Shown here one piece after another: positions 54,379 through 63,999 of a stretch of DNA of 64,000 nucleotides; the first letter of the stretch is position 1; the number at the start of each line of letters is the position of its first letter. Origin of the DNA: Zhongshania aquimaris (GTDB lineage Bacteria; Pseudomonadota; Gammaproteobacteria; Pseudomonadales; Spongiibacteraceae); assembly GCF_019312595.1 (NCBI RefSeq), contig NZ_JAHWDQ010000004.1:62001-126000 (forward strand), read 5' to 3'. Below the pieces are notes generated by a model that saw only the letters and a program-made list of their open reading frames with translations, made no database searches and was not told where the DNA came from. Both the position numbers and the translations under genes were made by a program.

Positions 54379-54890
54379 ACGCAAATAATCTAGCCGCACT
54401 AAATCCTACTGCAGGCCAATCATCGCCATTGGATCAGCTCGCTGATATTCATTTACCGCCACCCGTGGCCAGCTTTCCCTGGGCACCAGGCTGGTGGCTA
54501 GTGATCGCTGCAATCATCTTTGTCACCTTGGCAGCGGTGCTTTACCTTCGTCACTACCGCCGTAAAAATGCATTCCGGCGCGCAGCGCTCGCTGAATTAT
54601 TTGCGCTTAAGGCCGTAGAAAATAATCAGGAATTTGCACAGCAACTCAATCAACTACTGCGCCGTGTCGCACTGCATAGCTACGCAAATAAAAATATCGC
54701 CGGCTTAAGCGGTGATAAATGGACTGATTTTCTATATCGAAGTTGCGGTGACAAACCCGCGTTCACCGATACCGCCATGGAGGCGATGCTAAACGCGGCT
54801 TATCAGTCTGCGGCCCAATCACTCCCCCGCGACGTTCTTATTGCAGAAAGTACGGTGTGGATAAAACGTCACCGGAGCCACCATGTTTGA
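54375..54890 (+). CDS. DUF4381 membrane protein
   Basis: A 171-residue protein with one membrane helix (about 33-57, GWWLVIAAIIFVTLAAVLYL) preceded by the typical LADIHLPPPVASFPWAPG motif of DUF4381, then a basic helical C-terminal domain. Found in MoxR-Bat operons between the DUF58 and BatA genes; function unknown. Overlaps the next gene by 8 bases. Confidence 0.85.
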   Translation: MNANNLAALNPTAGQSSPLDQLADIHLPPPVASFPWAPGWWLVIAAIIFVTLAAVLYLRHYRRKNAFRRAALAELFALKAVENNQEFAQQLNQLLRRVALHSYANKNIAGLSGDKWTDFLYRSCGDKPAFTDTAMEAMLNAAYQSAAQSLPRDVLIAESTVWIKRHRSHHV

Positions 54891-55914
54891 ATTTCAGTGG
54901 CCGCTGGTCTTTTTATTAATTCCCCTACCTCTGCTGGTGAGGTGGCTGTCAAAACCACATAGCCAAAATACGGCGGCCGCATTGCGGGTACCTTTTTTTG
55001 CGCAGCTGCGCAGCTTGGGCAGCGAGGACAGCGGCCCGATTCGCAGCGGCAATTATGGAAACCTCATTTTGCTCAGCCTGGTATGGCTAGCCCTGCTCGC
55101 CGGCGCAGCACGACCAATCTGGATTGGCGAACCCGTCGCCATGCCTACCACTGGCCGAGATCTGATGCTGGCAGTCGACATCTCTGGCTCAATGAGCCAG
55201 GAAGACATGATTATTAAAGACCAGGGCTTGCCGCGGATTGCCGTGGTCAAAGCGGTTGTGAATGAGTTTGTTCGACAGCGCCAAGGGGATAAATTAGGAC
55301 TGATTTTGTTTGGCTCCAATCCCTATATTCAGTCGCCGCTGTCCTTCGATTTAGAAACCCTCAGCACCTTGATGAATGAAGCCCAAGTGGGCTTTGCAGG
55401 CAAGCAGACAGCCATTGGTGACGCTATCGGCTTTGCCATAAAACGGCTGCGTCAACGGCCGGAAAACAGCCGTGTATTAATCTTACTCACCGACGGTGCA
55501 GATACCGCCAGTACCTTAAAACCACTAAAAGCCGCCGAGCTCGCCGCCGCCGAAAAAATTAAGATTTACACCATTGGCGTTGGCGCCACTGAAATGAAAG
55601 TGCCAGGCATCTTTGGCAGCAGTTTTGGCGCGCGCACCGTAAACCCCTCTGCCGATTTAGACGAAGACACGCTGCAAACCATTGCCAGCAAAACCGGCGG
55701 CGAATATTTTCGCGCTCGCAACCCCGCCGAACTCCAAGCGGCCTACGATGCAATTGCCGCACTAGAACCCGTTGAACAAGAACAGGAAATGCTGCGCCCG
55801 GAAAAATCACTGCTGCACTGGCCACTATTTTTTGCGGCTGCCGCCATGCTGTTGTTAGCACTGAGCCGCAACTGGCCGTTTAATACACGCGGACAAAGTG
55901 AGGGGGCTGCATGA
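54883..55914 (+). CDS. batA: VWA-domain membrane protein BatA
   Basis: A 343-residue protein with two N-terminal helices, a von Willebrand A domain with MIDAS residues in AVDISGSMSQEDM, GKQTAIGDAIGF and LTDGADTAS, and a C-terminal helix (LLHWPLFFAAAAMLLLALS). The VWA domain faces the periplasm. BatA and BatB form the membrane part of the aerotolerance-type complex with the MoxR ATPase. Overlaps batB by 4 bases. Confidence 0.9.
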   Translation: MFEFQWPLVFLLIPLPLLVRWLSKPHSQNTAAALRVPFFAQLRSLGSEDSGPIRSGNYGNLILLSLVWLALLAGAARPIWIGEPVAMPTTGRDLMLAVDISGSMSQEDMIIKDQGLPRIAVVKAVVNEFVRQRQGDKLGLILFGSNPYIQSPLSFDLETLSTLMNEAQVGFAGKQTAIGDAIGFAIKRLRQRPENSRVLILLTDGADTASTLKPLKAAELAAAEKIKIYTIGVGATEMKVPGIFGSSFGARTVNPSADLDEDTLQTIASKTGGEYFRARNPAELQAAYDAIAALEPVEQEQEMLRPEKSLLHWPLFFAAAAMLLLALSRNWPFNTRGQSEGAA

Positions 55915-57965
55915 ACATCGCCGGCCTGGAATTACACTGGATTCGACCAGAACTAGTGTGGACAGCGATCCCACTGCTAATCTGCGCCCTACTCCTCAGC
56001 CGCCAGCAATTTCAACAACGCAGTTGGCAAAAGCATATTGACCCTGCTCTATTGCCCTTTTTGCTCGACGGCAAACCGAGTGGCAAGCCCCGCCGATCTG
56101 CGCTTATTTTACTTATCGCCGCCGTGCTGACGTGGTTGGCTCTGCTAGGTCCGGCCTGGGAGAAAGCCCCCTCGCCCCTCCATAAAAATACCGACGGCCT
56201 GGTGGTAGTGTTGGATTTATCGCCATCGATGCTGGCCGAAGATATACAACCTTCACGCATGGGTCAGGCGCGCTTTAAGTTGCGCGACATCTTGCATTTA
56301 CGGCGCGACGGCCAAACCGGTTTGGTGGTATTTGCCGGCGACGCTTTTGTTGTGGCGCCACTCACCGACGATGTAAACACGCTGCTCACACTGATTCCCG
56401 GCCTTAATCCCGGCATGATGCCACTGCCCGGCAGCAACCCTCTCGCAGGAATTAGCCTCGCCAAAGACCTGCTGGATCGCAGTGGCGCGAATGGCCGGAT
56501 ATTACTCATTAGCGACGGCATTAATGGCCGACAACTTGATGGCATAGAATCCTTCCTTGGCAACAGCGACTACCCTCTTTCAGTACTCGCTGTTGGCACC
56601 GAGGATGGCGCGCCCATTCCCCTACCAGGCGGTGGCTTTGCACGGGACAAGGACGGCAACATTATTGTCCCGGCACTGAGCGCAGGCGAATTACAAAGCC
56701 TTGCATCGGCGGGTGGCGGTGATTACCGAGAACTCAGTTTAGACGACAGCGATATAAAAGCGCTCTCCGTCGATACCGCTACAAGTCTGAGCGCCGAAGC
56801 GGATAGCCGCACTGAACGCAATTACGATCAATGGAAAGACGCCGGCCCCTGGCTGGTATTATTGCTACTGCCCTTTGCGCTGCTCGGTTTTCGTAAAAGC
56901 TGGCTGGCCAGCTTTTTACCCCTGCTGCTTCCGGCTCTGCTTATCCTTCAACCCAGCAAGGCCAATGCCTTTGAGTTTACTGATCTGTGGCAGACCCCAG
57001 ATCAGCAAGCGGCAAAAATACTAGCAACTGAGCCGCAAGCCGCCGCTGAAAAATTTGAAAACCCGGAATGGAAAGCCGCCGCGCAGTATCGCGCCGGCGA
57101 CTTTGAGGCCGCCGCACAAAGCTACTCCCAGTTTGACAACGCAGACGGCCACTACAACCGCGGGAACGCGCTTGCCAAGGCCGGCAAACTCGATGAGGCC
57201 ATTGCCGCCTACCAGGCCGCACTGGAAAAAAATCCGGATCTTATCGACGCTCAAACGAATAAAAAAATAGTAGAAGAGCTGAAGAAACAACAAGAACAAA
57301 ATCAGCAGCAATCAAAAGACCAGAATCAAGACCAAAACGACAAGCAAGATCAGCAGAAGCAGAACCAAGAAAGCCAAGGTGAGAATAATCAGAATCAAGA
57401 TAGCGAAAGTTCTGACTCAGAGAGCTCTGAATCTGAAAGCTCAGATTCTAATGAAAATAATTCGCAAGACTCGCCGTCACAAAATCAACAGGGTGATTCG
57501 CAGAACAAAGACAATCAAAATTCTGAGCAAGAGGCGAATCAGGAAAATAATTCATCGTCTGATCAACAGGAAAACGACCGCGAGCAAGATGATGGTGAAC
57601 AAGCATCGGCAGAGCAACAAAGTGAACAGGCTAAGGCCGAAGAAGATCAAGCGCGGGAGCGCCAAGAACAGTTAGCAGAAGACTATGCTAAGCAGGCGGC
57701 CGAACAAAACGAAGCCGTTCAAAACGCATTACAAGCCAATCAAGACAACAAGACACAGGGCCAAGCTGCCGACAAACAAACTGCGCAAGCTGCCATGGAG
57801 AGCGACGAGCCGCTTACCGAAGAGGAGCAGGCTCGTGAGCAATGGCTGCGAAAAATCCCTGACAACCCGGGGAATTTATTGCGCAATAAATTTCGCTACC
57901 AACATTTAGAACGTCAGCAGCGCGGCGAACAGCAAGGCGGTAATGAAGACTATGCACCCTATTAA
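55911..57965 (+). CDS. BatB-BatC fusion: VWA domain, TPR and acidic low-complexity tail
   Basis: A 684-residue protein. Two N-terminal helices, a VWA domain with DLSPSMLAEDIQ, PGSNPLAGISLAKDLL and LISDGINGRQ, two helices (about 305-345), TPR repeats near 395-445 (HYNRGNALAKAGKLDEAIAA), then about 170 residues of Gln/Asn/Ser/Glu/Asp-rich text ending in a charged helical tail. BatB and BatC are often separate; here they form one frame. The end overlaps the start region of batD. Confidence 0.88.
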   Translation: MNIAGLELHWIRPELVWTAIPLLICALLLSRQQFQQRSWQKHIDPALLPFLLDGKPSGKPRRSALILLIAAVLTWLALLGPAWEKAPSPLHKNTDGLVVVLDLSPSMLAEDIQPSRMGQARFKLRDILHLRRDGQTGLVVFAGDAFVVAPLTDDVNTLLTLIPGLNPGMMPLPGSNPLAGISLAKDLLDRSGANGRILLISDGINGRQLDGIESFLGNSDYPLSVLAVGTEDGAPIPLPGGGFARDKDGNIIVPALSAGELQSLASAGGGDYRELSLDDSDIKALSVDTATSLSAEADSRTERNYDQWKDAGPWLVLLLLPFALLGFRKSWLASFLPLLLPALLILQPSKANAFEFTDLWQTPDQQAAKILATEPQAAAEKFENPEWKAAAQYRAGDFEAAAQSYSQFDNADGHYNRGNALAKAGKLDEAIAAYQAALEKNPDLIDAQTNKKIVEELKKQQEQNQQQSKDQNQDQNDKQDQQKQNQESQGENNQNQDSESSDSESSESESSDSNENNSQDSPSQNQQGDSQNKDNQNSEQEANQENNSSSDQQENDREQDDGEQASAEQQSEQAKAEEDQARERQEQLAEDYAKQAAEQNEAVQNALQANQDNKTQGQAADKQTAQAAMESDEPLTEEEQAREQWLRKIPDNPGNLLRNKFRYQHLERQQRGEQQGGNEDYAPY

Positions 57966-58002
57966 TTCGACAACAGACCATGCGCATCGCAGGAAAGCGT
58001 TT

Positions 58003-59724
58003 ATGCCAAACAGCCTCCTAAATATTCTTACTCGCCCAATATTGGCGGTATTGCTACTACTCCTGTGCCAGATGAACAACGCTTACGCAGAAACCAATGT
58101 GCGCGCCAGCGTTGATCGCAATCAAGTTTCCAGCGAAGAAACCTTCACCCTATCGCTTGTGGCAGACAGCATTTTGTTTTCCGGCGAACCAGATGTCAGT
58201 GCGCTAGATGCAGACTTTCACATTATTAATAAACAGCAGAGCAGCCGCACCAATATTATCAATGGCAAGGTGAATAGTAGCCGACAATGGGACTATACCC
58301 TGGTCGCAAAACGCGAAGGCACCCTGACAATACCCGCTCTCCCGATGGGAAAGTACAAAACCCGCCCCATCACAATATCGGTAAGCAAGGCCGCAAAATC
58401 TCAACAAGCCAATAGCGATAGCATCTATCTTGAATCTGACATCACCCCTCGCAATGCTTACGTGCAGCAGGAGCTGCAGTACACCGTAAAAATATTTACC
58501 TCGGTGAATATACTCGACGCTTCGCTAGACGCGCCCGAGGTCGACAATGCAGTGGTTGAGGCCAATGGCGAGCAACGCTATCAAACTCTAATCAACGGTC
58601 GCTACTTTCAAGTTATCGAACGGCGCTACAGCATATACCCACAAGTTAGCGGCACGCTCTCCATTCCCAGCCTTACCTTGCAAGCGCGGGTTGAAGGCTA
58701 CCGACCCTCGATGCTCGACCCGGGCAGATTGGTGGTAAAACGCAGCGGCCAACACCGGGTAAAAGTCTCACCTCCACCCGCGGAATTTACTGGTTCGGTG
58801 TGGTTGCCAGCCAAAGAAGTTGAAATAGAAGAAAGCTGGAGTAAGGATCCCGACAAACTTAAAGTCGGTGACTCTGTTACCCGCACTATCAATATCAACG
58901 CTGACGGCCTGCTGGGCTCACAACTGCCTGCGCTACCTATTATAGATTTACAGAATGCCAAACTCTATCCAGACCAAGCCAAAATTGAAAAAGGTGACGA
59001 GCAATCGCACTGGACCGGAATTCGCAGCGAATCCCTTGCTATCATTCCCACCCGCGCTGGCGATTTTGTGCTTCCAGAGGTTCGTCTCGCATGGTGGAAT
59101 ACCGATACAGACAGCGCGGAATTTGCCGTACTTCCTGAGCGTCGATTCACAGTAGCGCCCGCGCTGGCAAATACCAGCGACGGCACGGCCTCGATTGGCG
59201 AAATTGCCTCGAACAATGCCACCGATAAAGTCAATAATCCCACTGCCGATAACGACACTGCTAAAGCGAATGTCGTCGACAGCACACAAGCGTATAACTC
59301 CTCGCTACTATGGACTGTTATCGCCATGTTGTTACTCAGCAATATCGCTTTTGCGGCAGCGTGGTGGCGTGGACGGCATCGCCCTGCCAGCCCGATTAGC
59401 GCGCCGGAAAGTAGCACTCAAAACGAGAGCAAAGCTTTCAAATCACTGGAGCGCTGCCTAAAAATTAAGGCTGAGCACAAAGAGTTACGCAATGCCCTAA
59501 CACACTGGGCAAGCTGCCACTTTAAGCGCGTGATGACATTGAGCGAGATAGCGAAAGCCATACCTGAACTTGAAGAGCCATGCCGACAACTCGACGCCCA
59601 TTTATTTTCTGGGCAGGCGATCACCATAGACCCTAGTACCATCATAAACGCAGTCAAAAAGGCGCGCAGCAAGCCAGCCGCACACCTAGCTGAACCAGCA
59701 CTTTCCCCGCTATATAAAAGCTAA
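58003..59724 (+). CDS. batD: BatD-like protein (oxygen tolerance family)
   Basis: A 573-residue protein with a signal peptide ending at NNAYA, several beta-sandwich domains (TFTLSLVADSI, IEERYSIYPQ type text in VIERRYSIYPQVSGT), a single helix near 430-450 (LLWTVIAMLLLSNIAFAAAW) and a basic cytoplasmic tail. The ATG at 58003 has a GCAGGAAAG site and a clean signal peptide, so it is preferred over 57943, which lies inside batB. Last gene of the operon. Confidence 0.85.
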   Translation: MPNSLLNILTRPILAVLLLLLCQMNNAYAETNVRASVDRNQVSSEETFTLSLVADSILFSGEPDVSALDADFHIINKQQSSRTNIINGKVNSSRQWDYTLVAKREGTLTIPALPMGKYKTRPITISVSKAAKSQQANSDSIYLESDITPRNAYVQQELQYTVKIFTSVNILDASLDAPEVDNAVVEANGEQRYQTLINGRYFQVIERRYSIYPQVSGTLSIPSLTLQARVEGYRPSMLDPGRLVVKRSGQHRVKVSPPPAEFTGSVWLPAKEVEIEESWSKDPDKLKVGDSVTRTININADGLLGSQLPALPIIDLQNAKLYPDQAKIEKGDEQSHWTGIRSESLAIIPTRAGDFVLPEVRLAWWNTDTDSAEFAVLPERRFTVAPALANTSDGTASIGEIASNNATDKVNNPTADNDTAKANVVDSTQAYNSSLLWTVIAMLLLSNIAFAAAWWRGRHRPASPISAPESSTQNESKAFKSLERCLKIKAEHKELRNALTHWASCHFKRVMTLSEIAKAIPELEEPCRQLDAHLFSGQAITIDPSTIINAVKKARSKPAAHLAEPALSPLYKS

Positions 59725-60798: not shown

Positions 60799-61128
60799 TT
60801 ACTTCTTGTCAGCGCCACATTTCGCTTCGCCACACTTGCCTTCTTTAGCTGCTTTATCCGCGCCGCATTTGGCTTCGCCGCACTTGCCTTCTTTAGCTGC
60901 TTTATCTGCACCGCATTTGGCTTCACCACATTTCGCTTCACCGTCTTTTTTCTCGGCACCGCATTTTGCTTCGCCGCATTTACCTTCTGCATCTTTAGCG
61001 TAATCAGCAAGCTGATAACCGCTACTCATTACTTTAGCCGCAAATGGGTTGGTATCTGCAACGGCAACCGAGGCCATTGAAGAAGCTAACATGGCTGCAC
61101 CTAGTGCCGTCATCGCAGTATTTTTCAT
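60799..61128 (-). CDS. HvfA-like Cys-rich RiPP metallophore precursor
   Basis: A 109-residue secreted peptide. Signal peptide MKNTAMTALGAAMLASSMAS to VAVA (cleavage after A24), then DTNPFAAKVMSSGYQL, the usual start of HvfA-type precursors. The core has eight Cys (51, 56, 67, 72, 83, 88, 99, 104), each in E[GA]KCG: three EGKCG and five EAKCG. In known family members the MNIO enzyme HvfB and partner HvfC convert EGKCG into oxazolone-thioamide groups that bind copper. DNA shows a 48-base repeat. Here no HvfB or HvfC gene is adjacent. Confidence 0.85.
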   Translation of the reverse strand: MKNTAMTALGAAMLASSMASVAVADTNPFAAKVMSSGYQLADYAKDAEGKCGEAKCGAEKKDGEAKCGEAKCGADKAAKEGKCGEAKCGADKAAKEGKCGEAKCGADKK

Positions 61129-61251
61129 TATGTCATCACCTTTGTAATCAGTTAAAAGATCTATTTGGCCGCAGCATTGCGACTCTACTTATTAGAGACA
61201 GTTAAAAACCATCTGTTACACCGTCGTGAAAATAAATTTCTTCCCGCCGGC

Positions 61252-61277
61252 TGTAACAAGACTTGTCGCCGCACGTC
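61252..61277 (+). promoter_or_regulatory. Possible ECF-type promoter of the doxX-sigma operon
   Basis: TGTAACA (61252-61258), 16 bases, then GTC (61275-61277), the layout of many ECF promoters. A second TGTAACA on the minus strand (61214-61220), facing the precursor gene, is followed by GTC after 14 bases. The pair suggests that the local ECF factor controls both directions. Inference from spacing only. Confidence 0.4.
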
Positions 61278-61357
61278 TTAATCGCATAAACCGACACTGT
61301 GGTTTCCGTCGACAAACGACTATAGCGCAATGCTGGTAACTATACGGAGTAAACTCA

Positions 61358-61969
61358 ATGCTAGATTTTATAAACAAAATTCGCAACCTGCAGACTGCTA
61401 TCGCGAAAATGGTGACACCGCTGGATGGCCTTCCCGCACTGGCGCTGCGCCTTTATCTGGTACCCGTATTTTGGATGGCTGGCAGCAGCAAGATGATGCA
61501 TTTCTCAGCCACTGTCGACTGGTTTGGCAACAGTGACTGGGGCTTGGGATTACCCTTTCCCTACGTAATGGCCTTTTTAGCAACCGCCGCAGAGGTGGGC
61601 GGAGCACTATTGCTATTGCTCGGATTTGCGACACGCTGGATTTCTATACCTTTAGCCGCGACGATGATCGTGGCCGCCACCACCGTGCACTGGCACAATG
61701 GCTGGCAGGCAATCGCCGACGCCAGTGCGCCGTTTGCCAATGATCGCGTACTTGACTCGGTAGAGAAACTTACCGCAGCACGCTCGCTACTTGAAACCCA
61801 CGGAAATTATGACTGGCTGACATCAAGTGGCAATTTCGTGGTACTGAACAACGGTATCGAATTTGCGGTCACCTACCTTGTTATGTTGCTCGCCCTAATG
61901 GTAATGGGTGGCGGTCGCTTTGTTAGCGCTGATTACTGGCTAGATCGTGCGCTAACAGTGACAAAATAA
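61358..61969 (+). CDS. DoxX-family membrane protein, HvfX-like
   Basis: A 203-residue protein with four to five membrane helices. ALRLYLVPVFWMAGSSKMMH and ATAAEVGGALLLLLGFATRW are DoxX blocks. DoxX members are a frequent neighbour of MNIO-type clusters (HvfX), where they may help copper handling or redox at the membrane. The ATG has CGGAGTAAA upstream. It is first in an operon with the ECF factor and diverges from the HvfA-like gene across 229 bases. Confidence 0.85.
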   Translation: MLDFINKIRNLQTAIAKMVTPLDGLPALALRLYLVPVFWMAGSSKMMHFSATVDWFGNSDWGLGLPFPYVMAFLATAAEVGGALLLLLGFATRWISIPLAATMIVAATTVHWHNGWQAIADASAPFANDRVLDSVEKLTAARSLLETHGNYDWLTSSGNFVVLNNGIEFAVTYLVMLLALMVMGGGRFVSADYWLDRALTVTK

Positions 61970-62040
61970 AGTGGAATACATAGCAGTGAACAGTTGCCTG
62001 AAAGCAGGAGGATCAGGGACACTAGGGGCTTAATCTTTTA

Positions 62041-62667
62041 TTGGAAACGCCTGTGTCTTTGCCCGCCGACGATCAAGAACTTATTCGCCGCCTTAAAATG
62101 GGTGATAACAATGCGTTTAAGCAGCTTATCAGCAGCTATCACCCGAAATTACTTATCGTTGCCAGGGCCATTGTCGGCGATGTTTTTGCGGAAGACGTCA
62201 CCCAAGAAGCCTGGAGCTCTATTTACAAGGCAATCGCTAAATTTGAGGGGCGGTCCAGCCTGTCGACGTGGATGATTCAGATTGTGAGCAACGAAGCTAA
62301 ATCGAGGCTGCGCCGGGAAAAGCGTCACAGTAGTTTTGGGGATATCGACGAAGTGCGCCCCGAGCTTGACGCGAATAGCTTTAATGGCGGGGGGCACTGG
62401 GTGAATCCCCCATCGCACTGGGACATCAATACACCAGAGCTCATGCTTCAAGAGGATCAGTTACGACATTGCATAGAACACACATTAACAATATTGCCAG
62501 AAAACCAGAAGGCCGTGTTTTTACTTCGCGATGTGGAGCAACATAGTTTGGAGACGATAGCCGAGCAACTATCTCTTAGTGAAGCAAATGTTAGAGTGAT
62601 TTTGCACCGGGCGAGATTACAACTTATGAAAACCATCAATCATTATCAGGAGACTGGAGAATGCTAA
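62041..62667 (+). CDS. ECF-type RNA polymerase sigma factor
   Basis: A 208-residue sigma-70 family factor. Region 2 (VGDVFAEDVTQEAWSSIYKA and FEGRSSLSTWMIQIVSNEA) binds the -10 and core; region 4 (LPENQKAVFLLRDVEQHSLE, AEQLSLSEANVRVILHRARL) binds the -35. A variable linker lies between. The frame starts at TTG (62041); GTG at 62050 is an alternative. The stop overlaps the anti-sigma ATG by 7 bases. It probably senses a metal or oxidative signal through its partner. Confidence 0.92.
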   Translation: METPVSLPADDQELIRRLKMGDNNAFKQLISSYHPKLLIVARAIVGDVFAEDVTQEAWSSIYKAIAKFEGRSSLSTWMIQIVSNEAKSRLRREKRHSSFGDIDEVRPELDANSFNGGGHWVNPPSHWDINTPELMLQEDQLRHCIEHTLTILPENQKAVFLLRDVEQHSLETIAEQLSLSEANVRVILHRARLQLMKTINHYQETGEC

Positions 62668-62903
62668 ACTGCAGGCAATTTACCGATCTCGCCAGCGACG
62701 ATATCGATCTCCAGCACACTGGCTGGAAACGGCTTGAAATTCGCGCGCACCTGATGATTTGTCGCCACTGTCGACGTTTTCGCCGCCACCTCGATCGCAG
62801 CCGCCAAACTGGTGCGGCTCTGGCACAACAGTTATGGCGCGGCGACGACGCCATGGCGGATATGATATTTTCGCGAATTAACCCGTCAAATTCAGGAAAA
62901 TAA
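62661..62903 (+). CDS. Zinc-finger anti-sigma factor
   Basis: An 80-residue protein. The HLMICRHC segment is the H-x3-C-x2-C motif of ZAS-type anti-sigma factors, followed by an Arg-rich helix (RRFRRHLDRSRQ). Metal loss or oxidation of the Cys pair would free the sigma factor. It is translationally coupled to the sigma gene. There is no membrane segment, so it is cytoplasmic. Confidence 0.85.
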   Translation: MLNCRQFTDLASDDIDLQHTGWKRLEIRAHLMICRHCRRFRRHLDRSRQTGAALAQQLWRGDDAMADMIFSRINPSNSGK

Positions 62904-62954: not shown

Positions 62955-62973
62955 CCCGCCACTACGCGGCGGG
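62955..62973. terminator. Hairpin between the anti-sigma and sensor kinase genes
   Basis: CCCGCC (62955-62960) pairs with GGCGGG (62968-62973), spanning the kinase stop codon. No T run, so it may be a weak terminator between convergent genes. Confidence 0.4.
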
Positions 62974-63999
62974 TAAATAAACTCTAAATTCAGCACCTTG
63001 TCCCTCTTCGCTATGAAGTGTTATTCGCCCTTCATATTCATCGAGAATCCGTCGACAGATTGCCAAGCCAATGCCATTACCCTCATACTCTTGCTCAGCG
63101 TGTAGTCGTTCGAAAACGCCAAAAATCCTTTTACTGTACTGCGGCGCAATCCCAACACCATTGTCTCGAATATAAAACCCAAGCTCGCCACTTTCTCCAT
63201 CTTTCAGCGGGCCAATTTCTATCGTCGGGGGCTCCTTATCTCGACTAAACTTAATCGCATTATTCAATAATTTTGAAACCAAGGTCGTTAATGCCTCCAT
63301 GGGCAAAGCAACTGTATCGAGTGCTTCGCGCTGCAATACCACCCCGTACTTTTTCATCTCTGCTGCATTCATTGAGAGCGCCTTTTCTAAAGCGTCATTG
63401 AGCGAGGAAGGCTCAAATTCACTGACGGTATTCAGACTCGAATACTCGTGTAAATCATCAATCATGGACGTTGTGTGTTTGGCCGACTTAACCATCATCG
63501 TCAACCATTTGGCTTCGTCCTCTGCCAAGCGATCGGTCAAACGATCCGACAATAACTCACCAAATACGGCAATCGAACGCAGCGGCTCTTTGATATCACG
63601 CGACGTTACTGTCGCGTAGCGCTCAAGTGCCACATTCGAACGCTCCAAGGAAACCTGATTTTGCTCAAGCAGGGTTTTCATCACGCGTGTTTCGGCAAGC
63701 TCTTCAGTGCGCTCATCCACCAACTGGTGCAAATCCCGCGACAAACGCTCCACCTCTGCACGCTGTTTAACATTTTCGGCAACTTCGTCACGCAACTGTT
63801 GATTCAAATCTAGCAGCTGCTTATTGCTGGGCAGCGCCAAGGCCTTGGGAATTAATGGCCACACAATAATGGCCGTACCAACAGAAGCAATGGCGGTGAT
63901 CAGTTTCACAATACCGCTAAGCCAATAAGCGCCGTACCAGACATTGAATATATTAATGAGATGGGTCGCGCCGCAGGCGAAGATAAAGACCGCAAACAT
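62962..63999 (-). CDS. Sensor histidine kinase-like protein with ethylene-receptor-type membrane domain (partial)
   Basis: At least 345 residues, cut at the window edge so the N-terminus is missing. The visible start, FIFACGATHLINIFNVWY (C9, H13), matches the ethylene receptor helix with C-G-A-T-H, where Cys and His bind copper in plants. Then come two helices, a coiled coil (60-125), a HisKA-like helix and an ATPase with NNAIKFSRDK, IRDNGVGIAPQ and EGNGIGLAICRRIL. The phospho-acceptor His is Arg (R134) in TSRDIKEPLRSI; codon CGT at 63598-63600 differs from His CAT by one base. Confidence 0.85.
   Translation of the reverse strand: MFAVFIFACGATHLINIFNVWYGAYWLSGIVKLITAIASVGTAIIVWPLIPKALALPSNKQLLDLNQQLRDEVAENVKQRAEVERLSRDLHQLVDERTEELAETRVMKTLLEQNQVSLERSNVALERYATVTSRDIKEPLRSIAVFGELLSDRLTDRLAEDEAKWLTMMVKSAKHTTSMIDDLHEYSSLNTVSEFEPSSLNDALEKALSMNAAEMKKYGVVLQREALDTVALPMEALTTLVSKLLNNAIKFSRDKEPPTIEIGPLKDGESGELGFYIRDNGVGIAPQYSKRIFGVFERLHAEQEYEGNGIGLAICRRILDEYEGRITLHSEEGQGAEFRVYLPAA

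Follow-up and report, generated by a model that had tools for sequence, protein, structure and literature searches.

The secreted precursor HvfA1 of Zhongshania aquimaris, whose gene has no MNIO gene beside it, is probably a second substrate that the distant enzymes HvfB and HvfC modify in trans under the control of an ECF sigma factor. Computation yielded the gene content of both loci, just one MNIO match apiece for 18 of 21 genomes, a conserved promoter motif shared by the loci, precursors that occur as alternatives to one another, and constraint on the HvfA1 leader. The whole 64-kb stretch of DNA that was analysed, here called the window, is part of contig C7 and contains the following features.

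60799-61128, minus strand: hvfA1, secreted HvfA-family RiPP precursor of 109 aa, matching NF050137
61192-61220, minus strand: predicted ECF promoter of hvfA1, TGTAAC-N16-TCTCTAA
61252-61280, plus strand: predicted ECF promoter of hvfX-ecf-zas, TGTAAC-N16-CGTCTTA
61358-61969, plus strand: hvfX, DoxX-family membrane protein of the HvfX family (NF050144, 235.2 bits, cut-off 80)
62041-62667, plus strand: ecf, ECF sigma factor with Sigma70_r2 and r4_2 domains
62661-62903, plus strand: zas, ZAS anti-sigma factor (NF052368, 56.5 bits, cut-off 50; antisigmaE/zf-HC2)

A preliminary description of this DNA had recognised an HvfA-like precursor with eight cysteines, and both the family profile and our reading of the ORF agree. 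HvfA1 scores 104.2 bits against the NCBIfam HvfA family model NF050137 (cut-off 19.5), and its translation, counted from the ATG, places three Cys residues in EGKCG and five in EAKCG. The N-terminus is signal-peptide-like, as judged from the sequence, and is followed by the motif NPFAAKVMSSGYQLA. With the stricter equivalog model NF050188 the score is 50.2 bits, under the cut-off of 95, as is that of HvfA2, the copy in the enzyme operon (43.5 bits); by these scores HvfA1 is a predicted member of the HvfA family, not an HvfA equivalog. Alongside a putative Sec signal peptide and repeated E[GA]KCG, hvfB and hvfC are present in the same genome, though not adjacent to hvfA1; such adjacency is not required by the Buf_EGKCG family as surveyed, for which stand-alone precursors are reported (PMC12452194). 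Identity with the Buf1 bufferins was rejected, as the precursor has no DUF2282 and no Pfam match.

The divergent DoxX, ECF and ZAS genes were also described correctly, as the NF050144, Sigma70_r2/r4_2 and NF052368 matches attest, and the DoxX protein is an HvfX-family member, not a bystander. The start of zas overlaps the end of ecf, and the ZAS protein carries Cys4, Cys34 and Cys37, read from its sequence. We compared 21 family genomes: our own (G000), 17 of the same genus, and three of another genus (G001-G003), with completeness of 70% for G003 and 84% for G016. At E<=1e-30 every one of them yields one match to the ECF sigma factor; identity is 64-91% in 16 of the 17 other genus-level genomes and 41-44% in G020 and G001-G003, where the match may be another ECF factor.

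Two HvfX-family genes in our own genome score above the cut-off, one beside hvfA1 and one at C1:1262790-1263344 (L014:5560-6414). The latter, whose context was read in our own genome only, has no precursor beside it and is preceded by what we take to be prfA-prmC-moeB-like genes; this second HvfX, at about 200-220 bits, occurs in 16 of the 21 genomes. G014 (L045) keeps ecf-zas and the promoter motif, and its genome gave no HvfX match at E<=0.001, from which we suggest that HvfX may not always be needed.

The locus is flanked by an EamA transporter gene and a histidine kinase gene, neither of them biosynthetic, in keeping with the earlier remark that the flanking genes are unrelated. The histidine kinase (window 62962-63999), which adjoins the ECF locus, has an ethylene-receptor-like ETR1_N domain at its N-terminus; a relative occupies the same position at 13 of 16 further genus-level ECF loci, G020 excluded. 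Upstream of the EamA gene, at 54883-59724 of the window, stands what is presumably a run of VWA-domain/BatD-like genes.

Enzymes at a distant locus

Neither an MNIO nor a DUF2063 gene is found near hvfA1, as had been noted from the window. The whole-genome check that the preliminary description proposed, carried out on an assembly of 4.25 Mb in 12 contigs (100% complete), located the sole MNIO at C1:337927-338709, within an intact hvfA2-hvfB-hvfC operon, with the second precursor gene hvfA2 beside it. HvfB scores 431.6 bits (cut-off 360) and is related to PDB 3bww (6.6e-79); HvfC scores 289.9 bits (cut-off 142) and is related to 3dee (1.4e-9). This operon is without hvfX, which instead stands beside hvfA1, and HvfA-type repeats occur at these two places only in the genome. 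By the preliminary description, an hvfB-hvfC pair just outside the window in the same regulon would have spoken against its reading; literally the pair is not there, being on another contig, but it apparently does belong to the same regulon.

The MNIO locus and the ECF locus were both read in each of the 21 genomes, G020 having one shared locus. An MNIO is present in all 21, HvfB and HvfC relatives are found at the MNIO locus read in each genome, and at least one precursor was found in each. The distribution of precursors varies among the 18 genus-level genomes. Ten have one at both loci (G000, G004-G009, G012, G016 and G017), three at the MNIO locus only (G013, G014 and G019), and one (G020) has a single contiguous cluster, ecf-zas-hvfA-hvfB-hvfC-hvfX. 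In the other four (G010, G011, G015 and G018) a precursor was found at the ECF locus alone, with hvfBC alone elsewhere, although the HMM missed HvfA1 in G018 and could have missed further precursors there. Since 14 of the 18 have a precursor divergent from hvfX-ecf-zas at the hvfA1 position, this arrangement is not due to chance.

At the four hvfBC-alone loci the distance from the promoter-like site to the hvfB match is only about 120-170 bases, too short to hold a precursor of such size; the assemblies of G015 and G018 consist of two contigs and one contig, respectively. A tree of the A1 and A2 leaders, in which support is mostly modest, pairs G010 with G011 (identical leaders) and G015 with G018, and the four genomes perhaps represent two independent lineages. 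G011 is the least clean of the four, given its second MNIO (L054, G011:C11), which is 31% identical to HvfB and has a weak HvfX/DoxX match close by.

A wider comparison used the best 80 of 543 HvfX relatives from a search of genome contigs. Among these 80, the Pseudomonas loci L102 and L124 hold ecf-zas-hvfA-hvfB-hvfC-hvfX together, and Simiduia, Gilvimarinus, Cellvibrio and the L132 genome, chosen for their split layout, have hvfX by ecf-zas and hvfABC elsewhere. No HvfA was found beside hvfX/ecf-zas in these last four. The split thus seems older than hvfA1, which would have been added at the ECF side in our own family.

A predicted promoter motif at both loci

The pattern TGTAAC-N16-nnTC occurs just twice in the window, at the divergent sites between hvfA1 and hvfX. 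We counted it across 439,818 bases of loci, grouping sites by position, and found 72 sites, 62 at four expected places and 10 elsewhere. It lies upstream of hvfABC or hvfBC in 20 of the 21 family genomes (it is absent in G020, whose contiguous cluster has no motif upstream), upstream of hvfA1 in all 14 genomes having that gene, upstream of hvfX-ecf in all 16 genus-level genomes with hvfX by ecf and, with the ecf of G014 that stands alone, in 17, and upstream of the DUF1223 gene in 11 of the 12 family genomes where DUF1223 was matched. The 10 remaining sites, inside ecf of G001-G003 and G020 and at six other positions, were rated off target. The control set comprised 250 ORFs with 200 codons or more. 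A site falls within the 900 bp upstream of 66 of them, and 62 of the 66 prove to be hvfB, hvfX, ecf or the EamA gene that follows hvfA1; one of the 62, hvfB of G020, was counted through the site inside ecf.

The distant operon has its own predicted site.

L002:11588-11616: predicted hvfABC promoter, overlapping the 3' end of the upstream hrpA-like gene

Its -10 is weaker (GGTCT), and it lies about 400 bp upstream of hvfA2. Applied to our whole genome, the strict pattern gave five matches against seven in a reversed control and missed this site, which is one position off the pattern; such a search is weak proof of a regulon when taken alone, and we used cross-genome conservation instead. Two strict matches, C5:575246 and C7:246447, were rejected as targets since the surrounding ORFs show no plausible downstream target.

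The ECF factor might govern its own locus only, with hvfABC under another regulator and the motif there merely reflecting the coding constraint on hrpA. Of the 20 family genomes that have the site, 16 do show the hvfABC/hvfBC -35 overlapping the last codons of the hrpA-like gene, coding constraint on which could help to conserve it, and the weak -10 in our own genome points the same way. Against this, the motif is kept past the upstream stop in G018, in G001-G003 and in four genomes of other lineages. Within the best 80 of 543 HvfX relatives, moreover, the motif precedes both hvfX and hvfABC in Simiduia, Gilvimarinus, Cellvibrio and the L132 genome, and the two Simiduia sites both end in CTCTAA, as if covarying. 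We consider control of the ECF factor's own locus only to be unlikely; judged by their conserved motif, the hvfA1/hvfX-ecf-zas locus and the distant hvfABC locus look like one ECF regulon.

In our own genome a gene for a secreted DUF1223 protein (L059:1598-2374, G000:C11; relatives at L060-L071) has the motif about 97 bp upstream. We take DUF1223 to be thioredoxin-like. The G006 gene, counted among the 11, is short or broken, with a stop inside the match. By its upstream motif the DUF1223 gene is a likely member of the regulon.

Leader constraint, repeats and proposed mechanism

After the signal peptide, NPF-x5-S-[SA]-G-Y or a close form of it is found in HvfA1, in HvfA2 and in 10 of 16 other extracted precursors, these 16 being ones with a neighbouring MNIO or otherwise canonical; the remaining six have variant forms or an N-terminus outside the extracted piece. 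Over the 47 codons of the HvfA1 leader, G000 shows no nonsynonymous and 13-14 synonymous differences from G006, G012 and G016. There are one, six and five nonsynonymous differences from G008, G005 and G017, respectively, and dN/dS is near 0 for gapless close pairs. Compared by eye, the signal peptides of the DUF1223 proteins in these genomes diverge strongly. The codon comparison indicates that, among close relatives, amino-acid change in the signal peptide and NPF-x5-SSGY of HvfA1 is strongly constrained. Values near 1 against G015 and G018 were dropped because the leaders, equal in length and unaligned, were out of register; dS was saturated for G004 and G007, so that no ratio could be given, and G009, G010 and G011 were left out for their differing leader lengths. 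Since modification of H. influenzae HvfA is poor when the signal sequence is missing (PMC13419390), this constraint fits a role as a recognition leader.

It also bears on the idea that hvfA1 is a functionless, decaying duplicate. In three of the 17 genus-level genomes with a non-contiguous layout, no precursor turned up at the ECF locus, and the copy in G016, the 84% complete genome, is short with five Cys. Set against these are the leader dN/dS near 0 among close relatives, an open frame and no fewer than five repeats in all 14 copies, and the four genomes in which the ECF-locus precursor is the only one found. We hold decay to be very improbable indeed.

The preliminary description had regarded the mixture of EGKCG and EAKCG as a departure from a pure core. 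It is ordinary: the same mixture occurs in HvfA2 and in the L147 precursor, each beside its own MNIO, and a FonA EAKCG-EGKCG fragment is modified at both motifs (PMC13097082). The oxazolone/thioamide chemistry given in the preliminary description is outdated, the Cys product now being assigned as 5-thiooxazole (PMC13097082, PMC13419390).

Enzymes acting in trans and a peptide working unmodified had been offered as the two possibilities, and our data favour the former. An unmodified HvfA1 would be secreted and, being Cys-rich, would buffer metal or thiols, its gene being induced together with hvfX; its own operon has no enzyme gene, and eight thiols alone could presumably bind metal. HvfB and HvfC relatives nevertheless persist in 21 of 21 family genomes, the promoter is putatively common with that of hvfBC, constraint among close relatives reaches into the signal peptide, and four genomes keep hvfBC where the sole precursor found is at the ECF locus. 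The intact hvfBC, the apparently shared promoter regulon and the constrained, leader-like N-terminus together suggest that HvfA1 is modified, and we judge the unmodified buffer improbable.

For modification in trans, we infer a route from inducing signal and ECF-promoter recognition to thiooxazole formation and copper binding. The ECF sigma factor would be held by the ZAS anti-sigma factor until a stress signal, probably copper or an oxidant, released it. Freed, it would transcribe hvfA1, hvfX-ecf-zas, the distant hvfA2-hvfB-hvfC and the DUF1223 gene through one promoter type. HvfBC from the distant locus would recognise the N-terminal region common to both precursors (signal peptide plus NPF-x5-SSGY) and turn the Cys of the E[G/A]KCG repeats into 5-thiooxazoles. 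The modified peptide would exit by Sec and then bind Cu(I), with HvfX assisting at the membrane. We give an even chance to the broader proposal that the ECF sigma factor replaces clustering here, with one HvfBC pair serving two separate precursors, either of which may be missing, at least one having been found in each of the 21 genomes.

If the split regulon is true, HvfA1 and HvfA2 may yield functionally different copper peptides, HvfA1 being the HvfX-tied one, and the search for MNIO substrates should use promoter motifs in addition to gene neighbourhood. A regulon motif can reveal what genome mining by neighbourhood overlooks, be it a precursor or a partner such as DUF1223.

Comparison with known systems

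In the mainly open-access literature that we searched, no split HvfA system linked to an ECF factor is described. The closest system is hvfABC-hvfX (oxazolin) of Haemophilus influenzae, which has the same EGKCG-type secreted precursor, HvfB-family MNIO, HvfC and HvfX; there they form one operon, whereas Zhongshania has two loci and two precursors (PMC13419390).

The Neisseria rpoE (sigmaE)-MseR operon, NMB2140-2145, likewise pairs an ECF factor with a ZAS protein (PMC2893595). Compared by published Cys positions only, the Zhongshania ZAS protein is of the MseR type, with Cys4, Cys34 and Cys37 placed as in meningococcal MseR, where these residues are important (PMC2893595). Both systems have a DoxX-like gene in the operon of the ECF factor and a target gene in trans, a predicted one in Zhongshania, and the Zhongshania -10 resembles the neisserial CGTCTAA. 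The -35 differs (GTMAGBWTT in Neisseria, TGTAAC in Zhongshania), the Neisseria operon genes are contiguous, unlike the Zhongshania split, and the trans target is msrAB there as opposed to hvfABC and DUF1223, as predicted from motifs, here (PMC2893595).

Caulobacter sigmaF is similar in that one ECF factor serves two separate MNIO operons via GTAACC-N16-CGAA; its regulon also has a YedY sulfite oxidase gene. It differs in its DUF2282 (Buf1) precursors, in its DUF1109-type anti-sigma factor and in having an MNIO operon for each precursor (PMC3511200).

The MNIO survey likewise reports precursors (Buf1, Buf2 and Buf_EGKCG) away from MNIO genes and suggests, without test, that these are modified from another locus or not at all (PMC12452194). 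Unlike the present analysis, the survey as consulted here presents no promoter link, lineage comparison or lone hvfBC case (PMC12452194). For precursors without an adjacent MNIO, Zhongshania offers a concrete, testable answer. Its locus is a rearranged or variant form of the known Hvf system, and modification in trans has already been suggested in print; new within the literature searched, as far as our searches show, are the division into two loci with a second precursor, their connection by promoter motif and the lone-hvfBC genomes.
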